Notes under the pieces: model-generated | What the model was told of the DNA's origin: nothing | What the model saw: the letters and a program-made list of their open reading frames with translations, nothing else | The model's database searches: none | Shown: positions 446-47,902 of the stretch, piece by piece | Numbering within the stretch: position 1 is the stretch's first letter | Layout: every line of letters begins with the position of its first letter | Assembly (NCBI GenBank): GCA_937981955.1 | Contig: CALJNA010000019.1 | Coordinates: 1 to 64,000, forward strand | Length of the DNA stretch: 64,000 bases | Origin: an uncultured Granulosicoccaceae bacterium | GTDB lineage: Bacteria; Pseudomonadota; Gammaproteobacteria; Granulosicoccales; Granulosicoccaceae | Direction of reading: 5' to 3' | Translations under genes and position numbers: made by a program

Positions 446-1246
446 CTAATTGGTGGTAAATAAAAACTCACTAACAATTTTAAGGAATGCGTCCGGGTTC
501 TCCCAGTGTACCGAATGTGCTGCATCATTTATCACGTGCAATGAGACTGCGGGAAAATTTGCATAGCTGTTTTGCAGATCAGCCGGTGAAAACATTCTGT
601 CGTTCGCTCCAGTGAGCGCCAATGCCTTGAACGGCAATGTATCTGGTAATGCAATTGGTTCAAGATAGCTTGGCAATGACAGGCACTGTTGTTGGAAAGA
701 CGTTGCATCTTGCTTGAACGGATAGTGCATTGAGGTGTTGACTGCATCATCGACTTGAGATTGATCTGCAAAAAAACGTGGGCTGAACAGAAACTGAAAC
801 AGTAGTCGGAACCAGTCGGCTTCGTTGTCTTCTGTTCGTAAGCGTGCAAGTGTATTAAATAAATCGATACGAGTTGGGTCTACGGTTAGTGGAGCGGATG
901 CTGCAACCAGCGCGTTAATACGCTCCGGTGCTTGCGCGGCGACCGCCCACGCTGTCAGAGCGCCCATAGAATGACCGACAAGCGAGACCTTGTCGATTTT
1001 CAACGTGTCCAGTAGCTCGATAACATCATTGACCAGTAACTGCCGCGAGGTTTCAACGGGCATTGGTTTCGTACGCCCGGTACAGCGATTGTCCATTCTA
1101 ATGATGTCGCCGTGTTTTGCTAACCCCTGCACTACGGGGTGCCAACTTGCGCTGTCGCTGGCCATACCGGCAAGCAACAGTACAGGTTGACCCTGACCGG
1201 TCCGTTCTATGTGCAGGTCGATTTCAGAGTTTGTTAGGTATGGCAT
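446..1246 (-). CDS. Alpha/beta hydrolase fold protein
   Basis: A 266-residue soluble protein with the alpha/beta hydrolase layout. The nucleophile elbow is GHSMG near residue 93, the acid is probably the Asp in TGANDRMF, and the catalytic His lies in DAAHSVHWENPDAF near the C-terminus. The oxyanion region LLLAGMASDSASWHPV is near residue 25. Length and motifs are typical of small esterases and lactonases of the BioH / enol-lactonase type; the substrate cannot be assigned. No signal peptide, so it is probably cytoplasmic. It stands alone on the minus strand, with no clear Shine-Dalgarno before the chosen ATG. Confidence 0.85.
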   Translation of the reverse strand: MPYLTNSEIDLHIERTGQGQPVLLLAGMASDSASWHPVVQGLAKHGDIIRMDNRCTGRTKPMPVETSRQLLVNDVIELLDTLKIDKVSLVGHSMGALTAWAVAAQAPERINALVAASAPLTVDPTRIDLFNTLARLRTEDNEADWFRLLFQFLFSPRFFADQSQVDDAVNTSMHYPFKQDATSFQQQCLSLPSYLEPIALPDTLPFKALALTGANDRMFSPADLQNSYANFPAVSLHVINDAAHSVHWENPDAFLKIVSEFLFTTN

Positions 1247-1364
1247 AGCGCGTAGCTTTTACACGCAGATGAGCAAGTGTGCAAGTCGAACGTTTAGCAA
1301 GGTGATGTGCCTTGCTGGCTTGCGACTCGCAGCTATTGGAAACGTACTTCGGGAAAAGCCTTGT

Positions 1365-1838
1365 CTATTGGTTTCTAACAACCCTGACCGGATAAAAGCT
1401 GACTCCGCTGGTGTCTAGCGAAGGTGCGCCGGGGTAGCCACGTTTGGCTGCCAGGTTATACCAGCGCACGGCATCGCTTAAAGCATCATTGGCAGCGGCG
1501 GGTGCGAAGGTCAGCATTTGTGCTTCGCTGGCGAAGTCTGCACCCAATGCTATCTGGGCGAGTCTTTCTCCCTTGTCGGCTTTATTTTTCAGTTGCTGCC
1601 GGTTTTGTTTTGCCAATTCGCGCTGTTCCTGCTTAACCTGCTTTTTCAGCTCGTTGTTATCGAGCCGCGCGGTGGACGGTCGTTTTTCATCGATCACACC
1701 ACTCTGGCCCAGACGATCATCCGCGACAGCCATACCTGAGGTTAGCAGTAAAGCATGCAAAATAATGCAGTGCATCATCAGTTTTAAAGTGCGTCTGGCC
1801 AACATCGTCATTTTTATTATTTTTCTGGACATCCGCAT
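1365..1838 (-). CDS. Small secreted protein with a Sel1-like segment
   Basis: 157 residues. The N-terminus is basic, then hydrophobic (MMHCIILHALLLTSGMAVA), and reads as a signal peptide ending before DDRLGQ. The middle is charged and probably helical (QEQRELAKQNRQQLKNKADK). The C-terminal part contains DAVRWYNLAAKRGYPGAP, which resembles one Sel1/TPR-like repeat. Family assignment is tentative. Several in-frame ATG codons (1838, 1811, 1805) could be the start; none has an obvious ribosome binding site. It is divergent from the 723-residue gene beginning at 1992. Confidence 0.6.
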   Translation of the reverse strand: MRMSRKIIKMTMLARRTLKLMMHCIILHALLLTSGMAVADDRLGQSGVIDEKRPSTARLDNNELKKQVKQEQRELAKQNRQQLKNKADKGERLAQIALGADFASEAQMLTFAPAAANDALSDAVRWYNLAAKRGYPGAPSLDTSGVSFYPVRVVRNQ

Positions 1839-1991
1839 AGTTTAATCGGTTCTGTCCATTATTTAGCGTGCGCCCGCGCGCTATCAACATTACTTTTTGT
1901 GAAGTAGTGCGTAAATTTGTACGGAAATTGCATTTTACGTGGTTATTAGCGCTCGCCAGAGACGAGCAAATAACTTCATGAGAAAAGCGCA

Positions 1992-43026: not shown

Positions 43027-44424
43027 TTATCCGCGAGACTTAGCGACTTTCTTAACCAGTCGTGTGCTCAGCTTGTTGTCTACACTTCTTGAAACTTCTT
43101 CCAATGTTCTTCGAGCCTGTAATTGCTTCTCGTGCAAGATAAGTTGCTTGGCCATTGAATCAACTTGCTCTTTAGTACGAGCTTTTTCTTTTTCCAATGC
43201 CTTAATCAGGCTGCTGATGGTTTTTTGTTTGTTATCCAGTTCCTCTTCAGCGTCGTGCAGTTGAGTTTCCAGGCGGGTACGAATCTCCATTGCCTGACGA
43301 GCGAAGGTGGTTGCCTTGTTTGCCGTGCTCAAAGCACGAGCTCGGGCTTCTATACTTTCGCGACTGTCTTTAGTTGCTTTGAGAGTATCCTGACGAAGCA
43401 GTACTACTTCGTTTTCAAGCGCCGCACATTTGTCTGCTTCTCGTTCCGCTCGAGCTTCTGCTGCGGCAGTACGTTTGGTTTTTTCGGCGAGTTCCTTTTC
43501 CAGTTCAGCCAAAGCTCTGGCTTTTTCAGATTCGTAGTTGCGCGACTCCGAGTCAAGCTCTGCGAGACCTTTGCGGGTAATTCGCAGGTGATTCTCCAGC
43601 TCTTTTCTAAGCCGTGTTTCCTCTTCTAAAGCTTCGCTTAGTCGCTTCGCTTCCAGTAAATTGCTCGCGTGGTCTGCTGTTTCTTGAGCCAGCGCTTCGG
43701 TGCTAGTGGTGGAATGTATTTCCAGAGCCTCAGCATTGGCCGCCTGATCCGTATCTGTTTCAGCAACAACTTGTGTAATCTCATGTTGGCTCAGTGGTTG
43801 AGCATCAATCTCGTACAGACCGGAATCCAACGATCCAAGTTCTGTTTCCTCACTAACAAGAATGGGTTCGTCAATGCTGAGTGGATCTATCTCAAATAGC
43901 TGAGTTTCGTCGTGTTCAGCGAAAGACCCAGACATTTCATCGCTGTCTGACCAGATAACGGTTCGTTCATCAATATCAACAATGCTTGTTGGCTCTAACT
44001 GCAGTGTTTCATCCAATTCCGCAGTCGCATCTGAGTCCAGCGCCAGCGTGGCGTCGTATTCTGCAGCTTCGGCAAACTCGATCTGATCTTCTTTGCGTTG
44101 ATCGAATTCAGCGTCAATTTGACGGTTAATTTTTGTCCGGTACCACAGGTAGCAAATGATACCCGGCAGCATCGCTGCGCCAAGAATCCATGCACCTGGT
44201 GTCAGTAAACTGAACACATCATTAAGGTTCATCTGGTAGGCCAGATGCAAGCCGTAGGACATGATGATTGCAACCGTAACACCAGTCCACAAGCCCAGAA
44301 ACCAGGAAGGACGTTGCGCCAGTGCCCGAGGTCGCATGAACGGGATGTAGCGGCCTGAAATACCGACAAAAAGTGTGTAACCGAGTAGTATCGGCAGACA
44401 GTACTTAAAGATGATGAGAGCCAT
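43027..44424 (-). CDS. Membrane protein with acidic linker and long coiled coil
   Basis: 465 residues from the ATG at 44424, which starts directly with a helix (MALIIFKYCLPILLGYTLFV); in-frame ATGs at 44496 and 44538 would add soluble residues. Three N-terminal helices (also FLGLWTGVTVAIIMSYGLHL, LLTPGAWILGAAMLPGIICY) are followed by a strongly acidic region at about 110-255 and a continuous Glu/Lys/Arg/Ala coiled coil from about 265 (ETRLRKELENHLRITRKGLA, EEELDNKQKTISSLIKALEK). No enzyme motif. It may act as a membrane-tethered spacer or scaffold. Confidence 0.7.
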   Translation of the reverse strand: MALIIFKYCLPILLGYTLFVGISGRYIPFMRPRALAQRPSWFLGLWTGVTVAIIMSYGLHLAYQMNLNDVFSLLTPGAWILGAAMLPGIICYLWYRTKINRQIDAEFDQRKEDQIEFAEAAEYDATLALDSDATAELDETLQLEPTSIVDIDERTVIWSDSDEMSGSFAEHDETQLFEIDPLSIDEPILVSEETELGSLDSGLYEIDAQPLSQHEITQVVAETDTDQAANAEALEIHSTTSTEALAQETADHASNLLEAKRLSEALEEETRLRKELENHLRITRKGLAELDSESRNYESEKARALAELEKELAEKTKRTAAAEARAEREADKCAALENEVVLLRQDTLKATKDSRESIEARARALSTANKATTFARQAMEIRTRLETQLHDAEEELDNKQKTISSLIKALEKEKARTKEQVDSMAKQLILHEKQLQARRTLEEVSRSVDNKLSTRLVKKVAKSRG

Positions 44425-44561
44425 TTTCTTTACCAGTTTTTTTCTTGATAGTGCGAACTGGTTTGCAAAAACCGCGCCTTTGTCTGAAAACGCCATGAAA
44501 AGTGAGAATGTGTGCGGATTCCTATAAACTATTCGCATCACTGAGGTATTGAGGAGACGAC

Positions 44562-45125
44562 ATGCTGTCGTTCTACAGATCAGGCCTGTTAGCGCTGACA
44601 CTGGTGAGCGGCTTTATGGCGGACGTAGAAGCCCAAGTTCAGCGCAGTTCACACCAGGCATGGGTCTCGGATGTGGCGATAGAAAGATTGCAAGATAAAT
44701 CGGTGCTTACTGAGTACTTTGGCGAAAGTGCGTCGAATGAGAACACGGATGTTATTGTCAGAGTCGGTTTCATTCCCCGATTCGGGTGTGCACCACTCAT
44801 TACATTCAAGTTCGACAATAGTTCCGCTCGGAGCCTGTTTCCGACCAGCAATCTTTCCGAAATTGATTCACTATCCGTATCAATAGACGGAGCGAACCTG
44901 TCTTTCCCCTCTCTGCTCGATGAGGACGGCAATGTCCACTCTATTTATATGAACGCAAGTTTGCAGCGCCGCATAACGGCCAGACTGAGAGTCGAGGTGG
45001 GTAATAGCTTGTTGCTGAGAACTGGCAGCTCGCGAAATCTGTCATTTTCGCTGTTGGGGTCGCGAGATGCGATCAGCATAGCTCATCAGAATTGTCGGCG
45101 ACACGACCCTTCACAACAGCAGTAG
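44562..45125 (+). CDS. Secreted protein of unknown function
   Basis: 187 residues. GAGGAG lies 6 nt before the ATG. A signal peptide ends near MADVEAQVQ. The mature part looks beta-rich (NTDVIVRVGFIPRFGCAPLI, SLSVSIDGANLSFPSLL) and has two Cys (GFIPRFGCAP, AHQNCRRHD) that could form a disulfide. No family recognised. It is divergent from the coiled-coil gene. Confidence 0.65.
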   Translation: MLSFYRSGLLALTLVSGFMADVEAQVQRSSHQAWVSDVAIERLQDKSVLTEYFGESASNENTDVIVRVGFIPRFGCAPLITFKFDNSSARSLFPTSNLSEIDSLSVSIDGANLSFPSLLDEDGNVHSIYMNASLQRRITARLRVEVGNSLLLRTGSSRNLSFSLLGSRDAISIAHQNCRRHDPSQQQ

Positions 45126-45188: not shown

Positions 45189-45479
45189 TTAAAGCTCGAT
45201 CGTGTTCTGCTCAGGCGCAAATTCGATTGCGCGTTTGTCCCACTGGTGGGTATTCACTGGCGCAGATTTCGTTACGCTTGGGTTTTCCATAACCGCTGCA
45301 ATAGCGTCATATTGCAAATGTACTCGGCGGTAGTGGCCGCGCCATTTGTCATTGCTCATGATCGCTTGCAGGTCATCTTCATCGGCCAGTTCTTCGGGCC
45401 TCATCTCTTCGACAGATTGCTTGATGGTGCTCGAAGATGTCAGCCTGTCGATACCTAGTACTTCGTAGTAATTTCTCAT
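45189..45479 (-). CDS. J-like domain protein without HPD motif
   Basis: 96 residues. It opens MRNYYEVLGIDRLTSSSTIK like helix I-II of a DnaJ J-domain, but the HPD tripeptide that stimulates DnaK is absent; the region reads MRPEELADEDDLQ instead. A later helix (RRVHLQYDAIAAVMENPSV) could be helix III. It is coupled by an ATGA overlap to the preceding gene, whose product ends in a J-domain with intact HPD. It may act as a decoy or partner J-protein, as in mitochondrial Pam16/Pam18 (analogy, inference). Confidence 0.6.
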   Translation of the reverse strand: MRNYYEVLGIDRLTSSSTIKQSVEEMRPEELADEDDLQAIMSNDKWRGHYRRVHLQYDAIAAVMENPSVTKSAPVNTHQWDKRAIEFAPEQNTIEL

Positions 45480-47902
45480 ACCGATACTCCGAGTAATTTG
45501 TCTCTGGCCTGTTCAAATGTGATGAAGCGTTGCTCTGCCAATGCACGCTCACGTTCGCCAAGTGCGGTAAATCGGTCAGGGTGGCAACGCCTTGCGGCGC
45601 GGCGGAACGCGTTAATGACTTGTGATTCATCGAAATCCGGGAGTAAACCCAAACGCGCAATCATCTGGTCCCGTTCAGGTCGAGATGCCATTGCTCTTGA
45701 ATTCCAGCGTTGAATCGTTTGCTGGTCCTGTTTGTCCCACCAGGCTTGTTTGTCCGGGCGAGGCATTGGTGGAAGCGTGTGTCCGTAGGCTGCCTCAAAC
45801 CGGCTCTCGAGCTGGTCTTTGCCAATGTTGAATGCATCGGATAGAAAACGCAGCAAAGTATTCTGCACAGGAGTAACGCTGTTTTCAGTAATGAGCAACG
45901 CCATAATCAAACTCAAAGATTGATCAAGTTGCGTTTGCGAGGCGTTGGTTCTTAGCCAGCCGATCACATCTGAGAATGCAAAGACATCCTGTTTCAGCAC
46001 CCAACGTTTGATTTGGTCGTGTTTGTTCAGGTCGTTGGCCGTGAAAAGGCGCTTTTTTAAATCTGGTTCATAACGCTCGTCGCCATAGGCAACCCAGTAA
46101 ATAAGAAATTCAATGCACAATTCCATATGATCAGATTCAGGCTGCTGTGTAAGCCAGTGACCAAATGCAGATTGCCAGGCAATGTTCGATTGTCGTCGCC
46201 CCCGACTCTGATCAGCTGAAACGCCGTTTGTTGCTGATTGCCGCATTGCCTGCTCAATGGGCGATTCTGAGGGGTGCGATTCTGGGGAGGGCGATTCTGG
46301 GGGTGTCTGCTCAAGTGGTTTGACTCGCGCGACTGGTTGTTCAGATTTCATCGCAATACGGGTCACGGCATCATGTTCAGAGTCGATGTCGTGCTGGTCT
46401 GCACCGGTTTGTGTCGGCATGACGTTTTGGTTTGCCGCGTCGCTCGGGGATGCGTTTGACAACGCCTGCGGTGTTGGATGCTCGTGAAGTGCCGGCTGGT
46501 CATTTTGAATGGCGTTCTCCGGGTCGCCAAATAACTCTGCAGCTTCGCGCTCATGTCGCAGTTTTCGGGTGTGCATACCCGGCTCGATTCGATCGGTTAG
46601 TGCGGTGTTATGAATGGATTGCTCAACCGGTTGTTTGGTTCGGCGAACCAGTGAGAATATTCCCAGCAGCAGAGCAGGTAGCGCAAGTACACCTGCAATA
46701 ATTAGCCAGCCCAGACTGTCAAGCGATGCAAGCGAATCAAGAAACTTCTGCCACAGCTCGCTGAGTCTGGGCATGATTTCACTGCCTGTACTGGCTTTAG
46801 GTGAATCAGCATTTGTCGTCGTTGATGCTGGCTCCTCAATGTCAATGCCTTGTGCCTCTGCTCTTTGCTGTTGCTTAACTGCTTCAACCAAGCCGGGTTT
46901 CGAGATGACACGGGGTTGTACGTTATTAAGTGCCGTGGGGGTAGACGCCAGGGTTGTAGTGGTGTCAGGGTTGTCTCCGGTTGCATCTCGAAGCGTGTTT
47001 TTCGCAACAACACTCGGCTGATCCAGTGCAATCGGTGCGTTGGTTTTACTCGCTGCTTGTGGATTGATGTTACGCGGTAAAGCCATAACCGCAGGTGTAG
47101 AGGTTTCACTTTTGGCGCTATCACTTTGAGCAATTGGTTCAGGCTTTTGAGAAGGCGCTGTTTGTTCTGTGGCAATTTTAGTTTCAGCAATTTTCGCGAC
47201 AGTTTCATTCACCAAAGATTTTCTTGCTGGAACTTCGGAAGTTCGAACCACTTGCGTTGCCGTACCCACAGAAACAAAGTTTGGCGCCACTCCAGCGATG
47301 GATTCGAATTCCACCACAATACACTGTCGATATTCAGCAGCGGTGGTCGCATTGGCCGAGCACCGCAGTTGCAATGCGTTTTTCTTCAGCATGTTCAATT
47401 TGCTGGTGTCTGCAGCAGGTACTGCAGTCAGGCTTTGCACTTGTGTGTTCAAACATTGTCGATAGCTGGCAGCACCTTGCTTTGACTGCGCATCGAAACA
47501 AGTTTGTTGCACCATGTAAAGTTCATCTTCGCTGACGTTGTCGAACACCGGAGCGCTGATATTTTTCAGTTCGCTAATTTGCTCGTTAACGCAATTCTGA
47601 TAGGCCGTAGAGGATTGACCGCCGGCCTTTGCACACGCTTGCTGCACGGCGTATTTGTCATCGAATGAGAGTTTTGCCAATTCGTTTGACTGCCCACTTG
47701 TGCGTAAATCGAGTTCGGCCTGAACACAATTGCGGTAAGCGCCGGCCCCTTCGCGAAACTGTACTGGAAGGCAAATCCGACTGATTTCGTCTTGAGACTC
47801 CTGCGGCAGGGAATCAAGTGATAGCGATTGCGCAGTCACTGATGATGCGGCCAATAGCAGCAAACCAGAGAGAAGTGATCGCATGAAGTGCAGTTGTTGC
47901 AT
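45476..47902 (-). CDS. Single-pass membrane J-domain protein with extracytoplasmic Cys repeats
   Basis: 808 residues. Signal peptide or N-terminal anchor MRSLLSGLLLLAASSVTAQS. Residues about 40-205 contain four repeats, each with two Cys 13-15 apart and a Y-[RQ]-x-C ending: Cys44/59, 90/104, 135/150, 181/194. A Thr/Ser/Pro-rich linker leads to a membrane helix at about 398-419 (LGWLIIAGVLALPALLLGIF). The cytoplasmic part ends in a J-domain with HPD at 774-776 (ARRCHPDRFTALG), preceded by a Pro/Glu/Ser pentapeptide repeat and a helical domain. It should recruit DnaK to the membrane; the Cys repeats may sense or bind something in the periplasm (inference). Confidence 0.8.
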   Translation of the reverse strand: MQQLHFMRSLLSGLLLLAASSVTAQSLSLDSLPQESQDEISRICLPVQFREGAGAYRNCVQAELDLRTSGQSNELAKLSFDDKYAVQQACAKAGGQSSTAYQNCVNEQISELKNISAPVFDNVSEDELYMVQQTCFDAQSKQGAASYRQCLNTQVQSLTAVPAADTSKLNMLKKNALQLRCSANATTAAEYRQCIVVEFESIAGVAPNFVSVGTATQVVRTSEVPARKSLVNETVAKIAETKIATEQTAPSQKPEPIAQSDSAKSETSTPAVMALPRNINPQAASKTNAPIALDQPSVVAKNTLRDATGDNPDTTTTLASTPTALNNVQPRVISKPGLVEAVKQQQRAEAQGIDIEEPASTTTNADSPKASTGSEIMPRLSELWQKFLDSLASLDSLGWLIIAGVLALPALLLGIFSLVRRTKQPVEQSIHNTALTDRIEPGMHTRKLRHEREAAELFGDPENAIQNDQPALHEHPTPQALSNASPSDAANQNVMPTQTGADQHDIDSEHDAVTRIAMKSEQPVARVKPLEQTPPESPSPESHPSESPIEQAMRQSATNGVSADQSRGRRQSNIAWQSAFGHWLTQQPESDHMELCIEFLIYWVAYGDERYEPDLKKRLFTANDLNKHDQIKRWVLKQDVFAFSDVIGWLRTNASQTQLDQSLSLIMALLITENSVTPVQNTLLRFLSDAFNIGKDQLESRFEAAYGHTLPPMPRPDKQAWWDKQDQQTIQRWNSRAMASRPERDQMIARLGLLPDFDESQVINAFRRAARRCHPDRFTALGERERALAEQRFITFEQARDKLLGVSV
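46261..46305. repeat. 15-bp tandem repeat (three copies) inside the J-protein gene
   Basis: GCGATTCTG recurs at 46261, 46276 and 46291. On the minus strand it encodes a Pro/Glu/Ser pentapeptide repeat (PPESPSPESHPSES) in the linker. Confidence 0.7.

Follow-up and report, generated by a model that had tools for sequence, protein, structure and literature searches.

Two overlapping genes of an uncultured Granulosicoccaceae bacterium encode a large TerB-J protein and a small J-like protein whose HPD loop has been lost; such genes stand together in 91/91 loci of two gammaproteobacterial families (28 in Granulosicoccaceae and 63 in a second family, f171). We think it somewhat probable that the products are subunits of an inner-membrane-associated J/J-like module, which in Granulosicoccaceae would serve partly as an Hsp70-independent scaffold. 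The first-pass annotation of this DNA had asked whether the two genes ever co-occur in relatives; at these loci they always do. The window (the whole stretch of DNA analysed, 64,000 nucleotides) carries the pair on its minus strand, with the following features.

45476..47902, minus strand: large partner, 808 aa (ORF; orthologues in 28 loci)
47303..47797, minus strand: Cys-pair repeats (C...Q..GaaaYrxC), four copies in the periplasmic part of the large partner (from Cys positions and repeat counts)
46643..46711, minus strand: single TM helix of the large partner, about residues 398-420 (hydropathy maximum 2.62)
45698..46168, minus strand: TerB-like helical domain of the large partner, about residues 579-735 (PF05099, AF2, hhalign)
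45491..45670, minus strand: C-terminal J-domain of the large partner, helices I-III (PF00226, HscB/DnaJ matches, VIA-align)
45575-45583, minus strand: HPD of the large partner, residues 774-776
45189..45479, minus strand: small partner, 96 aa, J-like, HPD loop deleted (profiles, AF2, fold matches)

Domain organization of the large partner

From its N-terminus, the large ORF encodes a signal peptide, Cys-pair repeats and a TM helix; after an acidic linker come a TerB-like domain and a J-domain, the latter being the module that activates the Hsp70 chaperone. The layout first assigned to the 808-residue protein, namely a periplasmic part, one TM helix and, at the C-terminus, a J-domain containing HPD, is confirmed; the TerB-like domain ahead of the J-domain had been missed. 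The hydropathy profile contains a single strong TM helix, near residue 401. Cys pairs are located at residues 44/59, 90/104, 135/150 and 181/194, the number of repeats ranges from 0 to 4 across relatives, and no confident Pfam family matched these repeats.

The conserved C-terminus comprises the 230 residues beyond the acidic linker and is modelled confidently by AF2 (pLDDT 93.3). TerB (PF05099) was detected in 8/27 orthologues, with a best E of 9.8e-5. The J-domain stops past helix III; PF00226 scored 18.9 bits on the full protein and 21.1 bits (E = 3.4e-4) on the 230-aa C-terminus, both under the curated Pfam cut-off of 27.8 bits, and the J part matched HscB/DnaJ and, by VIA-align, the structures of J-domains. 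Foldseek searches with the TerB-J model returned mostly unrelated helical bundles, the consistent matches coming from the J part only. Among named relatives, the closest are Granulosicoccaceae assembled from metagenomes. In three Granulosicoccus genomes the assembly splits the large gene, the contigs (L076, L078, L081) opening within its AEAAEAAEA-coding repeat.

The small partner is a J-like protein without HPD

The downstream 96-residue ORF overlaps the large one, as first described, by 4 nt (ATGA). The small protein had been said to begin like a J-domain, and the likeness extends beyond its start. Pfam DnaJ, applied to the protein alone, gave a weak 15.5 bits over helix I, below the 27.8-bit cut-off, so the HMM check proposed at first pass finds secure J homology only through family profiles and not through the single-sequence score. 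A profile of 27 orthologues matched solved J-domains from helix I through helix IV, leaving the HPD loop as a gap (E = 5.4e-6), and its best PDB matches were nearly all J-proteins. Alignment with bacterial DnaJ/CbpA J-domains by hhalign reached 97.3% probability over 58 columns; 20 column-shuffled profiles reached 0.9% at most. In that alignment 12-13 residues are missing at the HPD loop; overall, the deleted stretch that includes the loop measures 12-14 residues. Structure prediction, which could have returned a non-J fold, yielded a J-like one (AF2, pLDDT 83.7) that matched almost exclusively J-domains, with a best Z of 5.9, a middling value, taken alone, for a small helical fold. Chance likeness confined to helix I was considered and is ruled out by the profile searches and shuffles.

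HPD occurs in none of the 91 small proteins (28 from Granulosicoccaceae, one of them cut by a contig end, and 63 from f171), extending what had been reported for the 96-residue protein, and for this reason we class the small partner as J-like rather than as a J-domain protein. Its C-terminal motif DTHxWdkRlvEF is nearly invariant. Judged from profiles and predicted fold, the small partner is a true relative of DnaJ/CbpA J-domains that has lost the HPD loop.

Constant pairing and variable HPD in Granulosicoccaceae

The pair was found in 28 genomes of the order, from genera g1, g2 and g3, with the genes adjacent and their order constant in 28/28. The 4-nt overlap is identical in 27 of these 28 loci, suggesting coupled translation. 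Three same-genus genomes (G009, G010, G022) yielded no pair and were dismissed as counter-evidence to strict pairing, since the neighbouring yaaA is missing there too, so that this stretch was probably not assembled. Genera g4, g5 and g6 do not carry the pair; yaaA is present in the genomes that were checked. An ORF artefact, or a pair limited to one genome, is ruled out by the 91 loci and by purifying selection: close HPD-less relatives have, in both genes, dN of 0.01-0.13 against dS of 0.5-1.4.

The large partner keeps HPD in 8/27 Granulosicoccaceae orthologues and has lost it in 19/27, with NPE, NPA, HPE, RAE, EAS, RPE, DPE, QPE and others in its place. A tree built without the J region requires at least three changes of HPD state; because J-domains generally have HPD, several losses are the likeliest history. 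Helix II of a J-domain is a contact site for DnaK, and its mean net charge is about +2.9 in HPD-bearing members against +0.5 in HPD-less ones, a drop that would be expected if contact with DnaK were lost in the latter. Loss of HPD in 19/27, together with purifying selection, indicates that Hsp70 stimulation is not maintained by selection in most Granulosicoccaceae. DnaK stimulation is thus not the conserved role in this family, and regulating DnaK cannot be the general role of the small protein.

A second family carries the pair with its membrane anchor exchanged

A class-wide search of 369 genomes (about one or two per family) matched one genome, G397, in which a TerB-J gene lies directly upstream of a gene for a 143-aa HPD-less J-like protein. 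Within its family f171, which may be Halomonadaceae, the small gene is present in 63/121 genomes, and in 63/63 of these it is immediately preceded by the TerB-J gene in the same orientation.

L101:687-2208; L150-L180, L210-L241: f171 TerB-J and HPD-less J-like pairs, with a C-terminal TM helix on the small protein

In f171 every large protein (63/63) has HPD and no small protein (0/63) does. Judged by HPD, the pairing of an active with an inactive J-protein, proposed at first pass, therefore holds throughout f171 and fails for the 19/27 Granulosicoccaceae pairs whose large partner has lost HPD. Between families, hhalign aligned the small proteins at 97.8% (85 columns); the HPD loop is deleted alike in both, and a W..F C-terminal motif is common to them. 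The large proteins aligned at 98.9% over TerB and J. By profile comparison, both partners are homologous between the two families. In the class sample, a combined profile scored the two families at 88-104 bits against at most about 34 bits for ordinary DnaJ/CbpA J-domains. No relative of either family's small protein was found in plasmid records. In G397, a gene resembling a mechanosensitive channel adjoins the pair.

The predicted membrane anchor differs between the families. A TM helix is found at the C-terminus of the small protein in 61/63 f171 members, and the large f171 proteins have no clear TM helix, only a moderately hydrophobic TerB core helix. The anchor is thus swapped, lying on the large partner in Granulosicoccaceae and on the small partner in f171, and we infer from the predicted helices that the pair is always held at the membrane by one of its members. 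Of the indirect arguments for placing both proteins in one complex, this movement of the anchor between partners is the strongest.

Conserved neighbours and other J-proteins

Two further genes accompany the pair in the window.

43027..44433, minus strand: C1, 468 aa from its likely start, with N-terminal hydrophobic segments and a C-terminal coiled coil
44562..45125, plus strand: C2, 187 aa, putatively secreted, with two invariant Cys, convergent with the small gene

C1 is present in 27 genomes of the order and in 0/20 order genomes without the pair, C2 has profile matches in 24 Granulosicoccaceae loci and is syntenic with the pair, and C1, C2 and the J pair form a syntenic block in Granulosicoccaceae. 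No Pfam family fits C1 or C2 convincingly, and a tblastn search of two longer f171 regions detected neither of them. Their co-occurrence with the pair, which partly reflects shared ancestry, supports a common pathway without proving it.

The same genome separately encodes a DjlA-like protein of 283 aa. On its contig C82 are two more HPD-bearing J-proteins, L003 (ORF 1180-1848, minus strand) and L004 (ORF 1075-1704, minus strand), about 2 kb apart, each with a hydrophobic segment past the J-domain; they adjoin what appear to be genes for making and exporting exopolysaccharide.

Relation to known J-protein systems

In the mitochondrial import motor, a membrane-tied J-protein, Pam18/Tim14, has an HPD-less J-like partner, Pam16/Tim16, which binds and restrains it, lowering Pam18-induced ATPase stimulation (PMC2695266). 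The pair described here differs in having a TerB domain, other genetic surroundings, a bacterial inner membrane in place of a eukaryotic organelle, and a small partner in which the HPD-loop region is deleted. The resemblance to Pam18/Pam16 drawn at first pass stands as an analogy, since no Pam16 chain is listed among the small-protein profile matches to solved structures and 12-14 residues are deleted; we treat the mitochondrial system as analogous rather than assign the pair to it. Trypanosoma brucei offers a further parallel: Pam18 and Pam16 are there both J-like and repurposed, Pam18 is also without HPD, and the pair probably works independently of Hsp70 (PMC11349236).

DjlA, with the order TM-TerB-J, acts with DnaK on inner-membrane signalling, its TM helix being important for induction (PMC11709261). 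Facing the cytoplasm, it has a TerB-like domain and after it, at the C-terminus, a J-domain, the arrangement predicted for the large partner (PMC11709261). The N-terminus of DjlA is short, whereas about 395 residues precede the TM helix here; the f171 large protein lacks a clear TM helix; and the present proteins have a constant J-like partner and have often lost HPD. The NCBIfam DjlA equivalog model NF006948 gave 16.9 bits against a cut-off of 162. By model score and predicted topology, the large partner is not DjlA.

In chloroplasts, ARC6 and CJD1 are two membrane proteins that both carry J-like domains, which are reported to interact in yeast two-hybrid; they differ from the present pair in the domains flanking the J folds and in their plant setting, and a functional link was not found there (PMC3196505). 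AtcJ of the Shewanella atcJABC operon resembles the small partner as a dedicated short J-protein encoded with proteins of unknown function. AtcJ, however, has HPD, which the short protein here lacks, and it binds AtcC via its C-terminal tail (PMC6715715). The NCBIfam AtcJ equivalog NF050028 matched the large partner weakly (17.3 bits; cut-off 150). No bacterial J/J-like gene pair of such form was found described in the literature searched (a limited library), in line with the first-pass remark that none was known. J/J-like pairs have been described from mitochondria and chloroplasts, and the present pair would be their bacterial counterpart.

Proposed role and alternative explanations

The module's first role may have been to direct DnaK at the inner membrane. 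The TerB-J protein would be the Hsp70-facing subunit: its TerB domain would probably recognise the client or the location, at which DnaK would be stimulated by the J-domain wherever HPD is intact, as it is in the window. Having lost the HPD loop, the small protein would be unable to stimulate Hsp70; most likely it binds its TerB-J partner and then positions, stabilises or restrains it, and in f171 it would also anchor that partner. In Granulosicoccaceae the module would have been extended by a periplasmic part rich in Cys and by two conserved envelope neighbours; most lineages of this family would have dropped HPD, leaving the scaffold role alone. Physical contact, DnaK regulation and sensing by the pair are in this scheme predictions drawn from sequence.

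If the small protein were instead a Pam16-type inhibitor, mainly antagonising DnaK stimulation by its partner, the lowered ATPase stimulation of Pam18 (PMC2695266) would be the precedent, and HPD-bearing partners to act on exist in 63/63 f171 loci and 8/27 Granulosicoccaceae. We consider this unlikely, because the small gene is retained beside 19 HPD-less partners, where no inhibition is needed, with purifying selection in the pairs tested, and because its HPD-loop region is deleted, not substituted. Adjacency of the two genes could also mean a shared pathway without contact, with the small protein serving as an adaptor for another partner, such as C1, and merely co-expressed with TerB-J. Such an arrangement would fit the distribution of C1 (27 order genomes, and 0/20 of those without the pair) and the synteny of C2. 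It appears quite unlikely to us, since 63/63 f171 loci pair the TerB-J gene with the small one and neither C1 nor C2 turned up in the two longer regions searched there, and since transfer of the anchor between partners is easiest to understand with a shared complex.

We regard as very improbable an ordinary DjlA-type co-chaperone followed by an incidental trailing gene. The order of a TerB-like and a C-terminal J-domain is that of DjlA (PMC11709261), and the large protein does match the NCBIfam DjlA model weakly. That score, however, falls short of the cut-off, the genome encodes its 283-aa DjlA-like protein separately, the large partner has either a big periplasmic part or no TM helix, HPD is lost in 19/27 orthologues, and the trailing small gene is never absent. 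The reading we favour is a membrane-associated J/J-like module with a partly Hsp70-independent scaffold role in Granulosicoccaceae. Tentatively, and with less confidence, we suggest that these pairs make up a family of bacterial membrane modules, each an obligate J/J-like pair; Hsp70 stimulation would have disappeared from it, probably on more than one occasion, with both proteins retained, so that a co-chaperone became an Hsp70-independent membrane scaffold, in parallel with trypanosome Pam18/Pam16.

With the pair constant across two families, one HPD-bearing throughout and the other mostly without HPD, the role of a J-fold without Hsp70 can be compared in natural homologues, and the exchange of the membrane anchor between partners provides a simple, testable hint that the two proteins form a complex.
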